Of a DNA stretch of 8,411 nucleotides, positions 2-8,411 are shown in pieces. The stretch lies in the NCBI GenBank assembly GCA_021850555.1, contig JAJZLX010000124.1, positions 1 to 8,411 on the forward strand, in the 5' to 3' direction. The notes under the pieces are model-generated. The model was not told where the DNA came from. It did not search any database and saw only the letters and a list, made by a program, of their open reading frames with translations. Position numbers and translations under genes: made by a program. Each line of letters begins with the position of its first letter. Position 1 is the stretch's first letter. This stretch comes from Pseudomonadota bacterium (GTDB lineage: Bacteria; Pseudomonadota; Gammaproteobacteria; Steroidobacterales; Steroidobacteraceae).

Positions 2-1633
2 TCCAGCTCTTCGACATCGTCGTCGCAGGCTGCGGGCTCCGTCGTGCTCTCTTCATCGAGCTACACGGTCTCCCAGGGGGCCGGTACCCTGAAGGTGACC
101 GTCGATCGGAGTGGCGGCTCGAATGGCTCCATCAGTGTCTATTACGCCACCAGCGACGGGAGCGCCGTAGCGGGCGCGGATTACACGGCCACGTCCGGCA
201 CGCTACAATGGCCGAGCGGTAACTCATCGGCGAAGACCGTGCTCATACCCATCAGCAACGTCACTCCGTTCGCAGGGGACAAGACGTTCACGCTTACCCT
301 GTCTGAGGCCTCCGGTGGAGCGACGCTCGGCAGCCCGAGCAGCGCGACCGTGACGATCAGCGGCACGAGCGGACAGTCGTCACTGCCTTCGGCGCCAACC
401 GGGCTGGTGCTGGTCAACCAGGGCGGCCCCAATGTTTCCGACGCTTGGCAAGCTTGGTTGAACGAGCTGACCAATTATCAAGCGATCCAATGGCAGGCGG
501 CCGTGGCAGGCAACTATCCTGTCTCCTACTACGAGGTCTACCGAAACGGCATTGCGTATGCGAAGGTATCGGCACCGACTGAGTTCAAGGGATATATCGC
601 CGGCACCACATTGACGGTGACCTCCGTAATCTCCGGCACCGTCATCCAGGGAACGCGCTACAGTGGCACAGGTGTGGCGGCGGGCACGATGATCGATGCC
701 CCGCAGCTGAGCGGAACATCTGGCGCGGCCGGCACCTATCAGGTCAATGTGTCCCAGTCCGTGGGTAGCGTCGGCGCTCCGGTCACGTTCAGCGCCTGGC
801 AATTCATCGACACGGGGGCCACGGACAGCAACGATCCGGAGTTTAACACGCCGACCACGACGTACTCTTACGCGGTCGCCGCAGTGGATGCCCAGGGCCA
901 GGAGAGTCCGCTGACTTCGCAGTACACGGCGTACGGATACCGGAACGGCTACTCCAACTGGAGCGACTACAATTTCGATTACGGCGGTGCGGTTGCCACC
1001 TGGGACAGCGTCAATGGCAACCCTCAGGGCTCAGCGTTTGATATCGAGGCGGATGCCAGCGCCGGTGGCGGCTTTCTCTTCGTCGCGGGCGCTCCCCAGT
1101 CTCCGGAGGACGAAATTTCCATCGGAGCATTCAAGTCTTTCACGATCGACATCAATCCCGGATCTACGGTCGGCTACAAACTTCCCTTGAGCCTCTACAC
1201 GCGCTTGCCGCCCGGGGATGTGGCGCATTGGATGTCGATCCCCGACATCTTCGCCTACGGCCCTGCTCCCGTCCCGAATACCTGGGCGACGTACAAGGTT
1301 CCGCTGGAAAAGCTCGGCATCGGCACTTGCACCTTCACCGGCTCGATCTCGGGCACGACGCTGACGGTGACGTCCATCGACTCCGGTCCCGCGATCGTGG
1401 ACGCGGGGGGGTTCGTGACGGGGCCCGGGGTGCCGGCTGGCACCTATATCACCGCCTACGGACAGAATGGGCCGATCGGGACCTTCACGGTGGCAGGGCC
1501 AGGGATCAGCTCTTCGACGAGTGTGCCGAGCGAGACGATGACCTACCAGCGTGAGACCTTCTACAAGGCGGATATGCAGCCGAGCAGCGGTGTGATTCTG
1601 TACATGAACAACTTCGGCTTCACGACCAACTGA
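2..1633 (+). CDS. Modular secreted/surface protein, 3' part (Calx-beta, Fn3-like, C-terminal beta-sandwich)
   Basis: The frame is open to the window edge, so the gene begins upstream; residues are numbered here from the GTG at 44. A Ser-rich linker (SSSSTSSSQAAGS) comes first. Residues about 1-108 form a Calx-beta domain, with the typical DGSAVAGADYTATSGTL and FTLTLSEASGGATLG stretches; such domains often bind calcium in adhesins and extracellular enzymes. Residues about 117-290 are Fn3-like (YYEVYRNG, then TTYSYAVAAVDAQGQES). Residues about 297-529 look like a jelly-roll beta-sandwich ending in ILYMNNFGFT, as in some carbohydrate-binding modules. Two related about 70-residue modules interrupt the Fn3-like and C-terminal domains. 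A Ser-rich linker before Calx-beta is common downstream of a glycoside hydrolase or adhesin domain, but no catalytic domain is visible. No C-terminal anchor is seen. The secreted, modular nature is well supported; the enzymatic role is unknown. Confidence 0.8.
   Translation, partial: SSSSTSSSQAAGSVVLSSSSYTVSQGAGTLKVTVDRSGGSNGSISVYYATSDGSAVAGADYTATSGTLQWPSGNSSAKTVLIPISNVTPFAGDKTFTLTLSEASGGATLGSPSSATVTISGTSGQSSLPSAPTGLVLVNQGGPNVSDAWQAWLNELTNYQAIQWQAAVAGNYPVSYYEVYRNGIAYAKVSAPTEFKGYIAGTTLTVTSVISGTVIQGTRYSGTGVAAGTMIDAPQLSGTSGAAGTYQVNVSQSVGSVGAPVTFSAWQFIDTGATDSNDPEFNTPTTTYSYAVAAVDAQGQESPLTSQYTAYGYRNGYSNWSDYNFDYGGAVATWDSVNGNPQGSAFDIEADASAGGGFLFVAGAPQSPEDEISIGAFKSFTIDINPGSTVGYKLPLSLYTRLPPGDVAHWMSIPDIFAYGPAPVPNTWATYKVPLEKLGIGTCTFTGSISGTTLTVTSIDSGPAIVDAGGFVTGPGVPAGTYITAYGQNGPIGTFTVAGPGISSSTSVPSETMTYQRETFYKADMQPSSGVILYMNNFGFTTN
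584..790 (+). repeat. Inserted GTTLTVT module, copy 1 (within the Fn3-like domain)
   Basis: This codes for residues about 181-249 of the surface protein, counted from position 44. It begins YIAGTTLTVTSV and continues with SGTGVAAGTMI and AAGTYQVNVSQSVGS. It separates the Fn3 strand ending in KVSAPTEF from the strand beginning FIDTGATDS, so it sits in a loop of that domain. It resembles copy 2 at 1331-1543. From memory, similar GTTLTVT...GTYTV units occur in phage-tail-like and large surface proteins. Confidence 0.6.
1331..1543 (+). repeat. Inserted GTTLTVT module, copy 2 (within the C-terminal beta-sandwich)
   Basis: This codes for residues about 430-500. It begins TFTGSISGTTLTVTSI and continues with GPGVPAGTYI, IGTFTVAGPGISSST. 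It shares the order GTTLTVTS, SG, GxGVxAGT, GTxxV with copy 1 but has clearly diverged. It falls between LEKLGIGTCTF and MTYQRETFYKAD, interrupting what would otherwise be a continuous sandwich-domain strand pair. Confidence 0.6.
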
Positions 1634-1811
1634 CGCTGGCCGGCGACTCGCGCGCACCGTCCCAGAGCCGTATGGCCTCTCGTCAAGCCGGCAACTACGG
1701 CTTAGCCACTGTGAAATGGCCTCCGTCGACCGGCGGTCGCGCAAGCCTATCCGAGCGCGTATCAAAGAGCTCACGCCGAGCACTTCATTTTTTTTCTGAC
1801 TAATCTGATAT
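1634..1811. other. Intergenic tail after the surface-protein gene, with an 8-T tract
   Basis: No gene is seen. A run of eight T lies at 1788-1795, after a weak 4-bp stem (GCTC/GAGC at about 1770-1783). This could act as a poor intrinsic terminator for the upstream gene, but the stem is short and lies about 140 nt past the stop codon. The last bases, about 1796-1811, are the DNA flanking the right end of the IS1111-type element. Confidence 0.4.
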
Positions 1812-1826
1812 ATGGACTCCCCCTGC
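1812..1826 (-). repeat. Right-end inverted repeat of the IS1111-type element
   Basis: ATGGACTCCCCCTGC on the plus strand is the exact reverse complement of 3196-3210. It is the transposase-distal end. The flank beyond it reads CTGACTAATCTGATAT. Confidence 0.9.
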
Positions 1827-1927
1827 GTTGCAAGAGCGTGTTCGCTTCTGGATCCAGGATCGGACTGCGGACGATATATCCGGCCTCTGGTTGCCTCCGT
1901 CGAGGCGGGCCCTGATGACGATTCGCT

Positions 1928-1991
1928 CGCAGGAGCCTCATGAAGTTCTCGGTGTCTCGGCCACCGTTCAGACTATCAGGCTCTTCCTGCG
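1928..1991 (-). ncRNA. Candidate guide RNA (seekRNA/bridge RNA) hairpin of the IS1111-type element
   Basis: This lies in the 3' non-coding tail, about 100 nt past the transposase stop. On the plus strand the structure is as follows. The outer stem CGCAGG (1928-1933) pairs with CCTGCG (1986-1991). AGCC (1934-1937) pairs with GGCT (1979-1982), leaving a 3-nt bulge at 1983-1985. The internal loop has strands 1938-1949 and 1967-1978, 12 nt each. An inner stem CGGTG (1950-1954) pairs with CACCG (1962-1966), capped by a 7-nt loop. The strand 1938-1949, TCATGAAGTTCT, is identical to 3212-3223 at the left-end/flank junction. The opposite strand carries TATCAG (1974-1979, its last base in the stem), the reverse complement of CTGATA at 1805-1810 at the right-end/flank junction. 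Two guides in one loop, reading opposite DNA strands at the two junctions, are what IS1111 guide RNAs are known for. The ends of the mature RNA are unknown. The minus strand is inferred from the transposase direction. Confidence 0.75.
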
Positions 1992-2083
1992 TCGGTCTGA
2001 CCTGTTTCCATCAGCTTGTACGCTCTCGCAATTCCTGGTGGGTCGTACCTCCTCGATCTCGACTGCGGATTTGCTCCGGTGCT

Positions 2084-2100
2084 CGGCCTACGTCAGGCCG
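2084..2100 (-). promoter_or_regulatory. Hairpin over the transposase stop codon
   Basis: CGGCCT (2084-2089) and AGGCCG (2095-2100) form a perfect 6-bp stem with a 5-nt loop, and the TGA stop codon (2095-2093) lies inside it. No T run follows on the minus strand, so it does not look like a terminator. It could mark the boundary between transposase mRNA and the downstream guide RNA. That role is inferred. Confidence 0.4.
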
Positions 2101-3127
2101 TGGCTGCCGTGAGCTCCGCGGGTCGATATTCAGTTCCATGCGCCAAGATCGCCCAGGCGATGCGCGCGTGCTTGGCAGCGAGCGCGACGGCAGCGACATT
2201 CACGTGCCGGCGCTCCTTCAGCCGCCGCGCCCACTCGCTTTTGGCGTCGGTCTTCTTGTCGACGACGCGCAGGTAGGCTCGGGCGCCATGCACCAGGAGC
2301 GTGCGAAGGTACCCATCGCCCTGGCGAGTAATTTGCCCAAGGCGCCCCTTGCCGCCAGTCGAGTGCTGCCGGGGCGTAATGCCCAGCCAGGCGGCAAAGC
2401 CTCGCCCATTCTTGAACACGTGCGCATCGCCCACCGTGGCGACCAAGGCGGTCGCGGTCTGCGGCCCGATCGCCTCGATCCGCATCAGCCGGCGCGCCGG
2501 CTCGCTGGCCTCGGCCAGAGCGCGGATCTTGCTGTCGTAGGCGCGGATGTGCCCGTCGAGCTCCCGCAACTGCTCGAGCAGTCCAAAGAGCACCTCGCGC
2601 GCGAGGTCGGTCAAGGTGTTCTCCGCATCCTCGAGGATACCGGGCAGCTCGCGGCGCAGCCGCGCCACACCCTTGGGTACCGCAATCCCGAACTCGCCCA
2701 AGAGACCGCGGATCTGGTTCACCTGAGCGGTGCGGTTGGCCATCGTGAGCGTGCGGGCCCGGTGCACCATCAGCACCGACTGCTGCTCCTCGCTCTTGAT
2801 CGCCACGAAGCGCATGTTCGGTCGCCCGACGGCCTCACAGATCGCCTCAGCGTCGTTGGCATCGTTCTTGCCCCGCTTGCGGTAGGCCGCCACGTACTGC
2901 GGCGCCATCAGCTTCACCGTATGCCCGAGCTTGGTCAGCTCGCGAGCCCAGTAGTGCGCGGTGCTACACGCCTCGATCCCAATCAGACACGGCGGCAGCT
3001 GCGCGAAGTACTCCAGCACCTTCGCACGCGCCAGCGTCTTGCGCGCCTTGACTGCCCCGTGCTCGTTTACGCCATGCACCTGGAAAACCACCTTCGCAAT
3101 GTCAAGGCCCATTCGTGTAATCTTCAT
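2093..3127 (-). CDS. IS110-superfamily (IS1111-type) transposase / RNA-guided recombinase
   Basis: This 344-residue protein is the usual length for the family. The N-terminal RuvC-like DEDD domain shows D9 (MGLDIAK), E52 (IGIEAC), and D89 and D92 (GKNDANDAE). A helix-hairpin-helix lies at about 217-235 (IEAIGPQTATALVATVGD). The C-terminal transposase domain has FAAWLGITPRQHSTGGKGRLG, with S256 the likely nucleophilic serine. No frameshift is seen. These recombinases join element ends to target DNA using an element-encoded RNA and leave no target duplication. The ATG at 3127 is chosen over longer in-frame starts because GGGGGAG lies 5 nt upstream and MKITRMGLD matches family N-termini. That ribosome-binding site is part of a 12-bp copy of the terminal repeat. 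A long plus-strand frame opposite this gene is a GC-bias shadow. Confidence 0.93.
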   Translation of the reverse strand: MKITRMGLDIAKVVFQVHGVNEHGAVKARKTLARAKVLEYFAQLPPCLIGIEACSTAHYWARELTKLGHTVKLMAPQYVAAYRKRGKNDANDAEAICEAVGRPNMRFVAIKSEEQQSVLMVHRARTLTMANRTAQVNQIRGLLGEFGIAVPKGVARLRRELPGILEDAENTLTDLAREVLFGLLEQLRELDGHIRAYDSKIRALAEASEPARRLMRIEAIGPQTATALVATVGDAHVFKNGRGFAAWLGITPRQHSTGGKGRLGQITRQGDGYLRTLLVHGARAYLRVVDKKTDAKSEWARRLKERRHVNVAAVALAAKHARIAWAILAHGTEYRPAELTAATA

Positions 3128-3130
3128 CTT

Positions 3131-3142
3131 GACTCCCCCTGC
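3131..3142 (-). promoter_or_regulatory. Transposase ribosome-binding site embedded in a third copy of the terminal repeat
   Basis: On the minus strand GCAGGGGGAGTC ends 3 nt before the ATG at 3127, and its GGGGGAG core is a strong Shine-Dalgarno sequence. The 12 bases equal the inner part of the right-end repeat and are perfectly complementary to the left-end repeat (3196-3207), with a 53-nt loop between. A transcript entering the element through the left end could fold and hide the ribosome site. A transcript starting inside 3143-3195 would not. Control of translation is inferred. Confidence 0.65.
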
Positions 3143-3195
3143 TCTGTGATTGAACGAACTACAGTCTTCAATCTGGCACATCCGATGCCGTAAGG

Positions 3196-3210
3196 GCAGG
3201 GGGAGTCCAT
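3196..3210 (-). repeat. Left-end inverted repeat of the IS1111-type element
   Basis: GCAGGGGGAGTCCAT on the plus strand is the exact reverse complement of 1812-1826. It is the transposase-proximal end, followed outward by GTCATGA and then the apparent tip of the IS1634-type element. Confidence 0.9.
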
Positions 3211-3217
3211 GTCATGA

Positions 3218-3242
3218 AGTTCTTCCCCGCGTCTGAGCCGAC
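3218..3242 (+). repeat. Proposed left terminal repeat of the IS1634-type element
   Basis: It matches the reverse complement of 5131-5155 at 16 of 25 positions without gaps, with blocks AGTT, TTCCC and GC-GAC conserved. It begins right where the extended end of the IS1111-type element would stop. Confidence 0.5.
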
Positions 3243-3299
3243 GGTAGTCAGCAGATCTCGCATTTTCTAGGGTTTCGAAGCGCAGGCTTGGGCGTGTTT

Positions 3300-3328
3300 T
3301 TGTCGCAAAATGTAGTCACTAATACTAT
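3300..3328 (+). promoter_or_regulatory. Possible sigma70-type promoter for the IS1634-type transposase
   Basis: A -35-like TTGTCG (3300-3305) and a -10-like TACTAT (3323-3328) are separated by 17 nt, each matching consensus at 4 of 6 positions. A start site near 3335 would give a leader of about 30 nt before the ATG at 3364. The surrounding stretch is clearly more AT-rich than its neighbours. Confidence 0.45.
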
Positions 3329-3363
3329 TGCAATCACTTCTCAGATCAGCTATATTCCGTGGC

Positions 3364-5100
3364 ATGTCGCAAAGAGGAGGCGCGGTTCACGTCGTCACCA
3401 CACGGCGCCACTACAAAGGCCGGGTGTACGCCACGCATCTGCTGCGGCGCTCCTATCGCGAGGGGGCGCAGGTCAAGAACGAGACTGTTGGCAACCTCTC
3501 CCATCTTCCCGAGCCGCTGATCGAGGTGATCCGCCGCGCGTTGCGCGGGGAGACGTTCGTACCGATCGGTGAGCGGCTGCAGATCGTGCGCTCCAAGCCC
3601 CACGGACAGGTGCAGGCGGTGCGCGCGGCGATGCAGCGGTTGGGCTTTGAGTCCTTGATCGCCTCGCGGGGCAGTCCCGAGCGCGATCGGGTGTGTGCGC
3701 TGGTGGCCGCGCGGGTGCTCGCCCCGCATACGAAACTTGCGACCACGCGCTGGTGGCACACGACGACACTCGCCGAGGAGTACGGGGTCGAGGCGGCCGA
3801 CGAGAACGACCTCTATAGCGCGATGGACTGGCTACTCGAACGCCAGGGGCAGATCGAGCGCAAGCTCGCCGCACGACATCTGAGCGAGGGGGCGCTGGCG
3901 CTCTATGACCTCTCATCGAGCTATTTCGAAGGCACGCACTGTCCGCTGGCGAAGCTCGGCCATGATCGGGATGGGAAGAAGCACAAGCTCCAGGTCAACT
4001 ATGGGCTGCTGACGAGCCAGGCGGGCTGTCCCGTGGCGGTGTCGGTCTACGAGGGCAACACGGGGGATGCCAAGACGCTGATGCCGCAGGTCGCGAAGCT
4101 GCGCGAGGAGTATGGACTTAAGCAGGTGGTGTTGGTGGGCGATCGGGGCATGATCTCCCACAAGGCGATCCAGGAGTTGCGTGACCTCGAGGGGCTTTCC
4201 TGGATCACGGCGCTCAAGAGCACGCAGATCCGCACGCTCGTGGAAGGGGAGGTGCTGCAGCTTGGATTTTTTGATGAGCGCAATCTGGTGGAGATAAGCC
4301 ATCCCGATTACCCGGGCGAGCGGCTCATTGCCTGTCGGAATCCTGAGCTGGCGAAGCTGCGCAGCCATAAGCGCCAGGCGTTATTGGAAGCGACGCGCAA
4401 GGAGCTCGATAAAGTGCGCGCGAGCGTTGCAGCGGGGCGGCTGAAGGGCAACGACAAGATCGGCGTGCGCGTCGGACGCGTGGTCAACAAGTACAAGGTT
4501 GCCAAGCACTTCGAGCTCACGATCGAGGAGCAGCGCTTCGAGTTCAAGCTCCTCGATGAGCAGATCGCCGCCGAGGCGGCGCTCGATGGCATCTATGTGA
4601 TCCGCACCGCAGTCCCGAAGAGGCGCATGTCAGCGGCCGATGCAGTCAGAAACTACAAGGCGCTCGCGAACGTTGAGCGCGCGTTCCGTTCGCTCAAGAC
4701 CGTGGACCTGAAAGTGCGTCCGATCCACCATCGGCTCGAGGATCGTGTGCGCGCCCACATCTTCCTGTGCATGCTCGCCTACTATGTCGAGTGGCACATG
4801 CTCGAGGCCTGGCGGCCGCTGCTCTTCGCCGATGAAGATCAGGCGGCAAAAGCCGATCGCGACCCGGTGGCGCCCGCCGAGCGTTCCGAGGAGGCGTTAC
4901 AGAAGGTTCTCACGCACACTCTCCCCGACGGCACTCCGGCACACAGCTTCCGCACCCTGCTCGAGGATCTCTCGACCATCGTGCGCAACACCTGCCGCAC
5001 CCCCGGACCTGTCGAGCGCTCCGGCACCTTCGACCTCATCACCACGCCCACCGCAAAACAGCGCCGCGCCCTGGAGTTGATCGACACGATCGTCGTGTAG
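3364..5100 (+). CDS. IS1634-family DDE transposase
   Basis: This 578-residue protein has the normal length for the family. The N-terminal about 130 residues are an IS1634-type leader (YATHLLRRSYREGAQVKNETVGNLSHLP). The DDE catalytic core is visible: D182 in LALYDLSSSYF, D260 in VVLVGDRGMIS, and E438 in YKALANVERAFRSLK, the Y-R-E-K-type signature, followed by the VRPIHHRLEDRVRAHIFLCMLAYYVEW segment. The reading frame is intact, so the enzyme may be active; it would move the element by cut-and-paste. ATG 3364 is preferred over an upstream TTG at 3328, which falls in the -10-like box. ATG 3364 has no Shine-Dalgarno sequence. An AGGAGG lies just inside the gene at 3375-3380, but no start codon follows at a useful distance. 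Confidence 0.92.
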   Translation: MSQRGGAVHVVTTRRHYKGRVYATHLLRRSYREGAQVKNETVGNLSHLPEPLIEVIRRALRGETFVPIGERLQIVRSKPHGQVQAVRAAMQRLGFESLIASRGSPERDRVCALVAARVLAPHTKLATTRWWHTTTLAEEYGVEAADENDLYSAMDWLLERQGQIERKLAARHLSEGALALYDLSSSYFEGTHCPLAKLGHDRDGKKHKLQVNYGLLTSQAGCPVAVSVYEGNTGDAKTLMPQVAKLREEYGLKQVVLVGDRGMISHKAIQELRDLEGLSWITALKSTQIRTLVEGEVLQLGFFDERNLVEISHPDYPGERLIACRNPELAKLRSHKRQALLEATRKELDKVRASVAAGRLKGNDKIGVRVGRVVNKYKVAKHFELTIEEQRFEFKLLDEQIAAEAALDGIYVIRTAVPKRRMSAADAVRNYKALANVERAFRSLKTVDLKVRPIHHRLEDRVRAHIFLCMLAYYVEWHMLEAWRPLLFADEDQAAKADRDPVAPAERSEEALQKVLTHTLPDGTPAHSFRTLLEDLSTIVRNTCRTPGPVERSGTFDLITTPTAKQRRALELIDTIVV

Positions 5101-5130
5101 ACAGAAACCCTGCGCTCTCGCCGACCCTAT

Positions 5131-5155
5131 GTCAGCGAAATCAAAGGGAAAAACT
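5131..5155 (-). repeat. Proposed right terminal repeat of the IS1634-type element
   Basis: This is the partner of 3218-3242 in inverted orientation (16 of 25 identical). It lies about 30-55 bp past the transposase stop, a usual distance for an insertion-sequence end. Confidence 0.5.
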
Positions 5156-5439
5156 GTCCGGCGCGAGCATGAACTTCAGCCTAGCATGCGTTCACAGTTC
5201 CCACCCCGGCTGTTTGGGCAACAGCCTGCTGCCGACACCGCCGAAGCTCCCGCGTCGATCCCGCCCCGAACCGCTCGACAAAAAGTTTCGACCCAGTCGC
5301 CAGGGACAGGGATGCAAGTCCACACGCCCCGGATCGCGCAACGTACACGCCAAGTCGCGCACCGCTATGGGCGCATCCGTCCGGAGAAACGCCTCGCAGT
5401 CGTTTCGGTATTGCGCCGCCCGACGGGCGCGCGGCCTGC
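5156..5439. other. Intergenic region between the IS1634-type element and the cytochrome gene
   Basis: No gene is recognised. A perfect 7-bp hairpin (GGCTGTT 5208-5214, AACAGCC 5220-5226) has no T run on either strand. Near 5417-5429 a short GC stem (CGCCC/GGGCG) follows the cytochrome gene on the minus strand, also without a T run, so any terminator there is weak. Plus-strand frames across the region have no family-like features. Confidence 0.5.
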
Positions 5440-5898
5440 CTACTTTGCGCCCGGCTTCGACTTGCCGGCCAGTGAATGCACGTAGGCAACCAACTCCCAG
5501 ATCTTGTGCTTGGAAAACGACCACTTCCATGGTGGCATCGACTGGCCACCCACGACCCGACCATTGGAAATCGTAAGGTACAGATACGTCAGGGTGAGAC
5601 CTTTGCGCCCCTTCAGGCGCGGCCCGCGGCCGCCGGTTCCCTCGAACCCGTGACAGTAGGCGCAGGTCGACGCGAACGTCCGTTCACCGGCGGCGATCAC
5701 CTTCGGATCGTGGATGTTAACCAACGGCTGAAAGTGTTCGCTCAGAAACGCCGGTGTGGTGCCGTTTCCGGTCTGCCCCTCGACCGACCCCAAGGCGAAG
5801 CGGCCGAGCATACCGAGCCCCACCAGGCACGCGACTCCGGCTCCCACCAGCACCGTCCGCGAGTGCGTACCTGAATTCAACACACGACTACGGTTCAA
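5440..5898 (-). CDS. Membrane-anchored or secreted monohaem c-type cytochrome
   Basis: This 152-residue protein has an N-terminal hydrophobic segment at about 15-37 (TVLVGAGVACLVGLGMLGRFAL), serving as signal peptide or membrane anchor. A small class I cytochrome c domain follows: haem attachment C79-A-Y-C82-H83, the GTGGRGPRLKG loop after it, and the likely axial M121 in GQSMPPW. The C-terminal helix WELVAYVHSLAG is typical. It should carry electrons from the PQQ dehydrogenase encoded just upstream (91-bp gap) to the respiratory chain; this is inferred from position and family. The start is TTG at 5898, supported by AGGAGG 8 nt upstream. An in-frame GTG 15 nt further in is a weaker alternative. 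The domain layout matches the other cytochrome at 7897, suggesting two specialised copies of one ancestor. Confidence 0.9.
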   Translation of the reverse strand: MNRSRVLNSGTHSRTVLVGAGVACLVGLGMLGRFALGSVEGQTGNGTTPAFLSEHFQPLVNIHDPKVIAAGERTFASTCAYCHGFEGTGGRGPRLKGRKGLTLTYLYLTISNGRVVGGQSMPPWKWSFSKHKIWELVAYVHSLAGKSKPGAK

Positions 5899-5906
5899 AC
5901 CCCGAT

Positions 5907-5912
5907 CCTCCT
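5907..5912 (-). promoter_or_regulatory. Ribosome-binding site that fixes the TTG start of the cytochrome gene
   Basis: AGGAGG on the minus strand lies 8 nt before TTG 5898. No ATG is available nearby in frame, so this perfect Shine-Dalgarno sequence decides the start. Confidence 0.75.
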
Positions 5913-5940
5913 ATAAAATCCTCGCTTCTCCAAAACGGAA

Positions 5941-5968
5941 CCCAGTCGGCGCCGTGGCGCCGACCGGG
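5941..5968 (-). terminator. Strong intercistronic hairpin between the PQQ dehydrogenase and cytochrome genes
   Basis: On the minus strand CCCGGTCGGCGC pairs with GCGCCGACTGGG around a CACG loop, giving 12 pairs including one G-U. On the plus strand that pair would be an A-C mismatch, so the fold favours the minus transcript. TTCCGTTTTGG follows, only partly T-rich. It could be a leaky terminator lowering cytochrome expression, or a stem protecting the dehydrogenase message from 3' decay. Confidence 0.55.
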
Positions 5969-5989
5969 AATCCGTACTCGTTCAGCCTC

Positions 5990-7693
5990 TCATCGGTTGA
6001 GCGAGAATACCACGATCGCCGAACCCGCCTGCAGCTTGGTGATGGACGGGAATGCACTCGCCATGAAGCCCGGCGCCAGCGAGCCAAAGCCGCTCGTCAC
6101 GGCAATGTACTGCTTGCCGTTGACCGAGTAGCTCACGATGCCGCCACGCACACCCGAACCGACGTTGAAGTGCCACAGTTGCTGGCCCGTCCTCGCATCA
6201 TACGCGTGAACAATACCCTCCGGATCGCCGTTGAAGACCAGTCCGCCCGCAGTCGTCAGCACATCGCCGAGCCCCGGAATCGGGTAGACGATCTTCCACG
6301 CCACCTTGCCGGTGAACGGATTGAGCGCCTCGAGCCAGCCCCTGGCCGGCCGTCCCGGCGGATGGACCGCCTGCAGGCTCGACACACCGAGGTACAGACC
6401 GGTGATACCGATGGACTTCGGATTCTGCTTCGCGGGAACGGCATCCTCGCACACGTCCATGGTATTGAGGTACCACAGTCCGGTCTGCGGATTGTAGGCC
6501 CCCGGATTCCAGCTGGAGGCACCGATCAGGTACGGACAGATCAGGGTCTGCTTGCCCGGGGGCAAATTCCCCATCTCCCCGATCAATCGCCCTGTCTTCG
6601 GATTGATGCTCTTGACCCAGGTGTAGTCATGGAGCACCGACCAGACATTCCGCAGCTTGCCGTTTTTGGCATCCATCACCCACACGAACCCGTTCTTGTT
6701 CTCGTGGACCATTTCCAGACGGCCGTCGTGGTTGATGAACAGTGGGTCGTACACCGAGTCGAAGTCAAAGTGATCGTGGGGGACCTCCTGCCGATACCAC
6801 TTGATGTGTCCAGTCTGCGGATCGAGCGCCAGGACGCTCGACGAGTACAGGTTGTTGCCGTGGCGGTGATTGTAATAAAAATCCGGCGCCGCGTTACCCA
6901 CACCGATGTACGCGGTGTTGGTCTTCGGATCGTATTCGCCGACGTTCCAAGCCTGCGAACCGCCGACCTTCCATGTGTTGTCGGGCCAACTGGCCGGATC
7001 CGCCTTCGTCGTGAACAGCTTCCACATCAGCTTGCCGGTAAGCGCGTTGACGCCGAAGATCGTACCGCGAGTCGGCTGATCGCCTCCCGTCGTGCCTCCG
7101 ATCAGCACGTCACCGGCCAGCATCGGCGTTGACGAAAACACGCAACCGTAACATTTTTTTAGATCTGTCAGCTGCGTCGACCACACCCGCTTGCCCGTCT
7201 TCTGGTTGATCGCCACAACCCTACCGTCCAACGTCCCAAGGTAGACGAAGCCGTGACCCAGAGTGATGTTGCGGCTCTGATGATCATAGAAGCTCGCCGC
7301 ATGAATCGGCGCCAAGTGCGGTTGGTAATGCCAGATCACCTTGCCGGTGACCGCATTCAGCGCGTACACGTTGTTGTCCGGTGCAACGTAGTACATTACG
7401 CCGTTCTCGACCAGTGGTGTCGACAGCAACCCGTTCGTGACGTCGCCGGACTGCTGAATCCATGCGACGTGCAGGTGCTTGACGTTCGACGTGTTGATCT
7501 GGCCAAGCGGGCTGTACCGCCACCCGTTCCAGGTGCGATTGTACTGCGTCCAGTTATCCGGATTGGCGCTCGCGACGCTTAGCATATTCGCCCGCGCCTG
7601 CGAGACCCCCACTCCGAAAAGTGACAAAGCCAGGACGCCGGCCAGCGGCGCAGCGCGGACCCTGGTTCCTTTAAACGGCTTAAGATTCATCAT
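5990..7693 (-). CDS. Periplasmic PQQ-dependent (quinoprotein) alcohol dehydrogenase-like protein
   Basis: This 567-residue protein has a signal peptide at about 1-35 (cleavage likely after SQARA). The rest is an eight-bladed PQQ propeller, with repeated blade-closing motifs such as LNAVTGKVIWHYQP, INQKTGKRVWS, VNALTGKLMWKLF, LDPQTGHIKWY, LNPFTGKVAWKI and YDARTGQQLWHF. Active-site counterparts of methanol/ethanol dehydrogenases are visible: W249 under PQQ (GGSQAW), N267 (GVGNAAP), D310 (HDHFDFD), and K333 (ENKNGF) where ethanol-type enzymes have Lys. D312 gives an Asp-X-Asp pair. The usual metal-ligand Glu appears replaced, perhaps by D205. The adjacent-Cys pair is absent (HAASFYDHQSRN at 131-142); a C181-x-x-C184 occurs instead. 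The substrate is unknown, probably an alcohol or aldehyde. The start has GGAG 5 nt upstream (7699-7702). It is flanked by cytochrome genes on both sides. Confidence 0.9.
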   Translation of the reverse strand: MMNLKPFKGTRVRAAPLAGVLALSLFGVGVSQARANMLSVASANPDNWTQYNRTWNGWRYSPLGQINTSNVKHLHVAWIQQSGDVTNGLLSTPLVENGVMYYVAPDNNVYALNAVTGKVIWHYQPHLAPIHAASFYDHQSRNITLGHGFVYLGTLDGRVVAINQKTGKRVWSTQLTDLKKCYGCVFSSTPMLAGDVLIGGTTGGDQPTRGTIFGVNALTGKLMWKLFTTKADPASWPDNTWKVGGSQAWNVGEYDPKTNTAYIGVGNAAPDFYYNHRHGNNLYSSSVLALDPQTGHIKWYRQEVPHDHFDFDSVYDPLFINHDGRLEMVHENKNGFVWVMDAKNGKLRNVWSVLHDYTWVKSINPKTGRLIGEMGNLPPGKQTLICPYLIGASSWNPGAYNPQTGLWYLNTMDVCEDAVPAKQNPKSIGITGLYLGVSSLQAVHPPGRPARGWLEALNPFTGKVAWKIVYPIPGLGDVLTTAGGLVFNGDPEGIVHAYDARTGQQLWHFNVGSGVRGGIVSYSVNGKQYIAVTSGFGSLAPGFMASAFPSITKLQAGSAIVVFSLNR

Positions 7694-7896
7694 GTTTACT
7701 CCAGTTTCCTTAATTACTGTTCCAACGTTATTTCAACTAGACCAACCGTCTGGCGTCGCCGTACAGTTGCGGACCAGACACACCGACTACAACCGTTTCA
7801 CCCGCTGTGAAGGTGCAAACCGGGCAGTGGGGTCCCTTTGTACCTGATGAATGCAGCGCTGCCACTCCTCTTTTACATTCACTGTTGAGCAACTGA
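7694..7896 (-). other. Gap and leader between the upstream cytochrome and the PQQ dehydrogenase
   Basis: This 203-bp stretch holds the dehydrogenase ribosome site (GGAG, 7699-7702). A palindrome GCAGCGCTGC (7853-7862) lies about 35 nt past the cytochrome stop, with no T run. A TTGAAA-like element near 7727-7732 has no good -10 partner, so a separate promoter is possible but not shown. A short minus-strand frame encoding a peptide with PHCPVC ends near 7737; it is not supported as a gene. Confidence 0.4.
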
Positions 7897-8411
7897 TCAC
7901 GGTCGTCGCTCGAAGTGGCTGTTGCGCGAACGCTTGCGGTCCTGCGCCGCGATAACGACCGCCTCATGACGCAAATAAGCCACGATCTCGTGAATCTGCC
8001 GTGGAGTCAGTACCCGCCCCCACGATGGCATTTCCGTACCGGGACGTCCATTGGTTATCGTTGCGAACATGAGCGCAGCGTGGTTTCCTCCCCCCGGCGC
8101 CCAAGCACCGCGCACAAGGGTCGGGCATTTTCCACCGATGCCCCTCTGATTGTGGCACATCTGGCAATTGCGATTGAAAAGCGTCCTGCCCTTGATGATT
8201 GCCGCCCGCGAGCCCACACCGCTCCCGGTGCCGGCCGACGCCGTCAAGGACGCCTCATTCGCATGCACCTCACACGTCATCGCGCCAGCGAGCAGCGCCA
8301 ACACTACGACTTGAACCGCGAGTGCGACCAGTAAGGTGCCGCAACAGCGACGATGGCCGTTCCTCAGCGCTGCGCCACTTCGGCGATCCGCATGTTTCTC
8401 CGACGGCGTAA
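7897..8411 (-). CDS. Secreted monohaem c-type cytochrome, 5' end cut by window
   Basis: The frame stays open to the right edge. No convincing start is seen inside the window: no in-frame ATG, only GTG, CTG and TTG inside the hydrophobic stretch. The true start is therefore probably beyond 8411. Visible are a basic region (RNGHRRCC), a long hydrophobic signal segment (GTLLVALAVQVVVLALLAGA), and likely cleavage near EVHA-NEAS. Next comes a class I cytochrome c domain with the haem motif CQMCH, the GIGGKCPTLVRGAW loop, the axial Met in GTEMPSWG, and the C-terminal helix IHEIVAYLRHEA. A basic tail (DRKRSRNSHFERRP) ends the protein. It is the first gene of the visible locus, upstream of the PQQ dehydrogenase, and is the likely electron acceptor for it. 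An extra Cys in GGKCP is unusual next to the haem loop. Confidence 0.87.
   Translation of the reverse strand, partial: TPSEKHADRRSGAALRNGHRRCCGTLLVALAVQVVVLALLAGAMTCEVHANEASLTASAGTGSGVGSRAAIIKGRTLFNRNCQMCHNQRGIGGKCPTLVRGAWAPGGGNHAALMFATITNGRPGTEMPSWGRVLTPRQIHEIVAYLRHEAVVIAAQDRKRSRNSHFERRP

Follow-up and report, generated by a model that had tools for sequence, protein, structure and literature searches.

An IS1111-family element in the window (the whole 8,411-nt stretch of DNA analysed here) very probably encodes, in the non-coding tail behind its transposase gene, a guide RNA with two loops, one reading the target and one reading the element's own ends, with the tip of an IS1634-family terminal inverted repeat as the target. 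The preliminary description of this DNA had proposed an IS1111-type element whose tail, past the transposase, holds a guide RNA, two loop strands that each read a different strand of the target, and a target specificity readable from the sequence. The family hallmarks and the covariation of both guides with their own flanks support all three proposals; what goes beyond them is a second loop, which reads the element's ends, and the identification of the target. The anatomy of the element, the covariation of the loops with flanks and ends, and the empty site are observed directly; within the window they concern one copy and one insertion site.

Judged by its sequence, the element (Table 1) is a new member of the IS1111 family, whose RNA-guided mode of transposition was recognized only recently; its target is new and the comparative evidence unusually complete. 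Its transposase scores 349.6 bits against NF033542 ("IS110 family RNA-guided transposase," cut-off 140), its size and PF02371 C-terminal domain fit the IS1111 criterion (DEDD, 330–350 aa), and the family motif G--P----S(t)G is present as GITPRQHSTG, the variant with threonine (T in 37 and S in 89 of the 126 elements, out of 128, in which the motif was located). The solved structures matching the transposase represent two distinct sequences, IS621 and ISCro4, the latter of which we take to be an IS110-group member; the threonine of the window's motif aligns with a serine in ISCro4. From the stop codon to the right end there are 284 bp of non-coding DNA, located 3′ of the transposase as in the IS1111 family, and the subterminal inverted repeats measure 15 bp, compared with the usual 11–13 bp. 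Tips of 7 bp on the left and 3 bp on the right are stated for the family (PMC11187229); these lengths were imposed on the relatives when their ends were assigned, not discovered there, and they are borne out by the covariation of the loops with flanks and ends. They also agree with the empty site, where IS1634 copies read through the junction.

A search of positions 1500–3400 against Rfam gave no match at E up to 0.1. One relative of the element was found in viral contigs; in plasmids no near copy was found (0 of 807 records cover 80% of the element), and the best match to a plasmid protein among the matches listed was about 59%. A third copy of the subterminal repeat (3131–3142) lies over the ribosome-binding site of the transposase and folds with the left repeat (3196–3207) into a leader hairpin (−39 kcal/mol for 3100–3209) that is predicted to hide this site. 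The complementarity of the leader repeat is 8.16/10 to the own partner and 6.95 to those of others (0/5000 permutations, 128 elements), and translational control of the transposase is possible. Elsewhere, the window holds a PQQ-dependent methanol/ethanol-type dehydrogenase gene between two small cytochrome c genes (5440–8304; dehydrogenase score 437.5, below the family cut-off of 480), and a Calx-beta domain protein that is open at the window start (2–1633).

Table 1. Coordinates of the IS1111-family element, its putative guide RNA and its target in the window.
Feature	Position	Strand	Details
IS1111-family element	1809–3217 (1409 bp)	minus	left end 3217, right end 1809; 7-bp/3-bp tip rule of the family applied
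DEDD transposase, open frame	2093–3127 (344 aa)	minus	PF01548, PF02371, NF033542
Left subterminal inverted repeat	3196–3210 (15 bp)	minus	ATGGACTCCCCCTGC
Right subterminal inverted repeat	1812–1826 (15 bp)	minus	
Left 7-bp tip	3211–3217	minus	TCATGAC; donor side, core T included
Right 3-bp tip	1809–1811	minus	ATA
Conserved guide RNA, approximate extent	1857–2014	minus	conserved block of the alignment, judged by eye
Target-reading hairpin of the guide RNA	1928–1991	minus	fold and covariation
Guide 1	1967–1978	minus	UGAUAGUCUGAA; the 3′ nine (1967–1975) pair with the target top strand
Guide 2	1938–1949	minus	AGAACUUCAUGA; GAACU and core U read the left flank
Donor loop, 5′ strand	1908–1920	minus	GUCAU (1919–1915) predicted to pair with left-tip ATGAC; covariation
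Donor loop, 3′ strand	1865–1885	minus	AUAUA, U and C correspond to right end, core and next base
−35-like TTGCAA	1828–1833	minus	17 bp from −10-like TATCAT, formed only when the right end joins the left
Left half of occupied target	3218–3223	minus	AGAACT, inside the IS1634 terminal inverted repeat
Right half of occupied target	1801–1808	minus	TCAG, repeat tip; ATTA, flank
IS1634-family element	1805–5179 (1805–1808 and 3218–5179)	plus	NF033559; uninterrupted copies L126, L127
IS1634-family transposase	3364–5100	plus	NF033559
Right IS1634 repeat tip, second vacant target	5170–5183	plus	12/13 scored positions

The two stems enclosing 12 + 12 nt that had been drawn for the hairpin are present on the minus-strand RNA, which reads (1991–1928) CGCAGGAAGAGCC, guide 1 UGAUAGUCUGAA, CGGUGGCCGAGACACCG, guide 2 AGAACUUCAUGA and GGCUCCUGCG. 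This RNA folds with −26.6 kcal/mol (z −3.97; 0/200 shuffles reach this value). About seven bases are also paired across the 12 + 12 stretch in the minimum-energy fold, and the open loop therefore rests on the family alignment and not on this fold. Conservation of the stem-loop in homologues had been named as a check, and in 40 aligned hairpins (chosen by us from 78, 70–76 nt long) 86.4% of the cells pair. Their covariation score is 0.624, versus 0.165 when shuffled and at most 0.137 when slid, and 13 of the 15 stem pairs change on both sides (10.9 on average in shuffles).

Both guides track the flanks of their own element. Guide 1 pairs through UAGUCUGAA (1975–1967) with TTCAGATTA in the rejoined target, with one G.T pair; TTCAGATTA consists of the last left-flank base and eight right-flank bases, which is also the span of the guide 1 agreement. 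In a non-redundant set of 97 elements that includes the window's own, guide 2 scores 4.56 of 5 on its own left flank, versus 1.46 with the flanks of others, and guide 1 scores 5.32 of 9 versus 2.72, values that 0 of 10,000 permutations reach for either guide. This set was clustered from 113 of 128 elements, leaving out ten with short flanks (one of them L153), L164 (no guide) and L038, L098, L168 and L198 (hairpin absent or ends misassigned); the later locus scan comprised 178 loci, 38 of them without a repeat pair or hit. Of 80 relatives fetched, 70 gave a repeat pair. In the first set, the guide test used 78 of 89 unique elements in 65 guide clusters, without nine that had short flanks and without L038 and L098 (no hairpin). 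Here guide 2 scored 4.71/6 on its own flank versus 1.76 and guide 1 5.51/10 versus 2.96 (0/20,000 permutations for either), and for either guide of the window the top rank among the 78 elements went to its own flank.

The scoring windows were trimmed to five bases (guide 2) and nine (guide 1) after the per-position result of the first set, in which bases 2–6 of guide 2 agree with the flank in 77–97% (expected about 30%), the next base being the core. Base 1 of guide 2 shows no tracking in the relatives (0.17 versus 0.22), so its match in the window is not evidence. The relation between loops and flanks, another check that had been proposed, held up again in a later collection, assembled once the register had been set (35 of 39 unique elements, new yet not all distant from the first set): 4.54/5 versus 1.36 for guide 2 and 5.43/9 versus 2.72 for guide 1, with 0/10,000 permutations for either. 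As a control for kinship we used disjoint close pairs with different flanks. For guide 2 the own flank was better in 47 of 49 pairs, with 2 ties and none worse; for guide 1, 38 of 50 pairs favored the own flank, 6 were tied and 6 went the other way. The own flank was best or tied in 83/97 elements for guide 2 and in only 51/97 for guide 1, which is the looser of the two guides. In L034, L042, L050 and L075, guide 1 starts with UGAUAAC or CGAUAAC and the right flanks carry GTTA, presumably resembling integron attC core sites.

The identity of 1938–1949 with 3212–3223, put forward in the preliminary description as a loop strand copying the left junction, is exact and unique in the window. It was considered improbable by chance there, and when the tail was dinucleotide-shuffled, a 12-mer in common with the junctions arose in 3 of 5000 cases. 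Half of the identity is the element's own left tip: the 12 nt are composed of 6 nt of left flank (3218–3223, AGAACT) and TCATGA, 6 nt of the 7-bp left tip (3211–3217), which the tail AUGA of guide 2 matches.

The element splits an IS1634 element 4 bp from its left end. The joined flanks read CTGA up to the junction and AGTTCTTCCCCGCG beyond it, and align to the uninterrupted IS1634 copy L126 over 192 bp (96.9%), with only nine bases of the alignment to the right of the junction, and to L127 over 191 bp (82.2%). Both alignments have equal length on the two sides, so that a target duplication is absent for the IS1111 element. The transposase of L126 is 98% identical to that of the window's IS1634 element, and the same nine repeat bases are found inverted at its other end (5171–5179). 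Together, the match of the joined flanks and the inverted nine bases place the IS1111 element between bases 4 and 5 of the left repeat. The hexamers flanking the IS1634 element itself are unequal (left ACTAAT, 1799–1804; right CCTAGC, 5180–5185), both of the form NYTARN, and may reflect recombination between two copies.

The guides together spell AGAACT/TCAG-ACTA (slash at the insertion point), that is, the repeat tip followed by NYTA, with one G of the RNA accepting C or T. Of 20 IS1634 loci, 12 showed, among the candidates listed, a repeat pair flanked on both sides by the same 6 bases, and 11 were used; L145 was dropped (partial gene, unlike repeat, flank not NYTARN). All 11 uninterrupted copies kept, from five genomes, have 6-bp duplications NYTARN, and the NYTA that guide 1 spells is thus the consensus beside IS1634 elements (11/11). 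Guide 2 matches 5/5 at all 22 tips of these copies. Allowing wobble in the right half, 6 tips score 13/13, 10 score 12, 4 score 11 and 2 score 10, the tips being those of related copies and the 13-position score having been written after the site was seen; a background of 984,026 positions gave none at 13, 9 at 12 or more and 156 at 11 or more. A relative with a 65% identical transposase (L009) starts within the right-hand repeat of a different IS1634 element, following GAAC, at a site 74 nt past the IS1634 stop codon, the same distance (counted by hand) as in the window's vacant site; its junction differs by one base. Another relative, L003, adjoins a further IS1634-family transposase. On this comparison of sequences, what is new here is the target, the terminal inverted repeat of a neighboring IS1634-family element. 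Insertion into the terminal inverted repeats of other mobile elements is a feature shared with IS4321/IS5075 and IS1383. IS4321 and IS5075 reportedly target the terminal inverted repeats of the Tn21 family, and IS1383, which is IS1111-like, is said to target the inverted repeats of IS1384; here, the IS1634 family is concerned.

The 3′ half of the RNA contains a second loop that covaries with the element's ends. AUAUAUC (1879–1873) matches the right end and core (ATATA, T), and in the 97 elements the 3′ strand agrees with each of the two variable right-end bases in 96/97 (expected 0.71 and 0.64) and with the core in 94/97 (expected 0.44). The 5′ strand, which has one extra base (1920) relative to close relatives, agrees with the last two bases of the left tip in 72/97 (expected 0.28) and 90/97 (0.56). 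Each agreement is above expectation (0/5000 permutations), and among close pairs the own end is favored 29:0 at the right end; at the left tip the ratio is 30:1, with 13 pairs tied. A first donor-loop test had covered 84 of 89 elements, without L033, L035, L038, L098 and one with a missing flank. Potential donor-binding nucleotides were already reported for many IS1111 RNAs (PMC11208160), and the covariation gives a donor loop in IS1111 RNA strong comparative support.

We propose the following mechanism. In loop 1 (1928–1991), the two guides would divide the target between them and overlap at the insertion point, guide 1 pairing with the right half on the top strand and guide 2 with the left half on the bottom strand. 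Loop 2 (1908–1920 with 1865–1885) would read the element itself, pairing with its right end, its core base and its left tip where these abut in a circular intermediate. By analogy with published relatives, from which we infer that the guide RNA is produced, bound and needed, the transposase would bind this RNA, excise the element as a circle and catalyze insertion of the circle at the site read by loop 1, without duplication and with a preference for one orientation. The abutted ends would create a candidate promoter, TTGCAA-17-TATCAT, and in ISEc11 the circle junction forms an active promoter at the same place (PMC11187229).

A commonplace terminator or mRNA structure whose matches arose by chance can be practically dismissed as an account of the hairpin: GC-rich stems past a stop codon would suit such a structure, but the stems covary, the loops track the flanks beyond every one of 10,000 permutations and in close pairs, and a T-run after the hairpin was not found. 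Very unlikely, too, is the exact arrangement of the preliminary description, in which both strands read the integrated junctions and guide 1 does so through TATCAG (1974–1979), the reverse complement of CTGATA (1805–1810). Both hexamers exist and guide 2 does match flank and left tip, but the TATCAG register lacks covariation (1.75 of 6 with the own versus 1.67 with other junctions in 97 elements, reached by 1304/10,000 permutations; of the close pairs, 5 favor it, 10 go against it and 38 are tied) and UGAUA is common to relatives with different right flanks. Since this half is not above chance, we rejected it as the guide 1 register and, as a general rule, the TATCAG reading is refuted; the supported guide 1 strand is 1967–1978.

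A more serious alternative, which we nonetheless consider unlikely, holds that the short target hairpin is enough, that the protein recognizes the ends through the subterminal inverted repeats and that the 3′ half of the RNA is mere precursor. It is favored by ISEc11, for which an 82-nt seekRNA gave better transposition than the long form (42% versus about 15%; PMC11187229), a sufficiency with which the donor-loop covariation sits uneasily. Against it, the 3′ half covaries with tips that lie outside these repeats, which is hard to explain without pairing of RNA and ends at some step. It is also quite unlikely that the choice of target is real and the IS1634 specificity accidental, the tip having resembled some other, true target. 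The window offers a single copy, and a scan of one or two neighboring frames for each of L002, L004 (whose sequence stops 7 bases past its element), L005, L006 and L008 found no IS1634 transposase, so that the clade as a whole probably does not target IS1634; yet the guides spell the IS1634 tip and NYTA, and L003 and L009 adjoin IS1634-family transposases as well.

A guide RNA with a target-reading and an end-reading loop can be compared with the published systems, as far as the available excerpts describe them. With the seekRNAs of ISEc11, ISKpn4, ISPa11 and ISPst6 it shares subterminal inverted repeats, 7/3-bp tips and a location in the downstream non-coding region, and with IS1111-family seekRNAs in general the order of guides, the complement of the top strand (guide 1) lying 5′ of the bottom-strand match (guide 2); an overlap of the two matches within the target is described for ISEc11 (PMC11187229). 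It differs from those seekRNAs in its target and in an end-reading loop backed by covariation. Like the bridge RNA of IS621 and other IS110 elements (PMC11208160, PMC11208158), it would have target and donor loops, guide pairs for both strands and a shared core. In contrast to that RNA, it is located downstream and not upstream of the recombinase and the top-strand guide comes first.

There are weak hints of handshake pairing in IS1111 RNA. In the donor loop, the base past the core agrees with the target in 81/97 (expected 0.63) and with the donor in 25/97 (expected 0.20, 1/5000 permutations), the second base past the core in 44/97 (0.32) and 11/97 (0.12), respectively; in the later 35 elements the next base follows the target in 28 and the donor in 18. 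Close pairs for donor loop and target, few and often tied, give 6:1 (9 ties) and 18:5 (22 ties). In the target loop, the first base beyond the core follows the target in 71/97 and the donor in 41/97, each more often than in permutations; the bases after it correspond to the nearly invariant AT of the donor, matching in 77/97 (expected 0.76, 16/5000 permutations) and then 81/97 (expected 0.84), the latter giving no signal. The target loop gives 4:0 (9 ties) and 2:1 against the donor tip, in few close pairs, and 8:2 (6 ties) against its own target. IS1111 guide RNAs might thus be mirror-image bridge RNAs in which both loops are used and each 3′ strand, past a core of one base, spells the other DNA partner, that of the donor loop the next bases of the target and that of the target loop the left tip. 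As the evidence from the tail of the target loop is mixed, we regard this reading as tentative and somewhat doubtful. The handshake would lie here on the guide that pairs with the bottom strand (donor side), unlike in IS621, where the handshake guides are on the top-strand guide (PMC11208158). If true, IS1111 enzymes would cut and exchange the bottom strand first, opposite to IS621, and guide 2, AGAACU-UC-AUGA, would show flank, core and own tip directly.

The element landed in the tip of an IS1634 element, and its guides spell that tip down to the consensus of the IS1634 duplication. In the relatives sampled, a fixed register of the RNA reveals both the target of an element and its own ends. 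These observations bear on a current disagreement about IS1111 RNAs, namely whether their role ends with finding the target or includes bridging to the donor ends.
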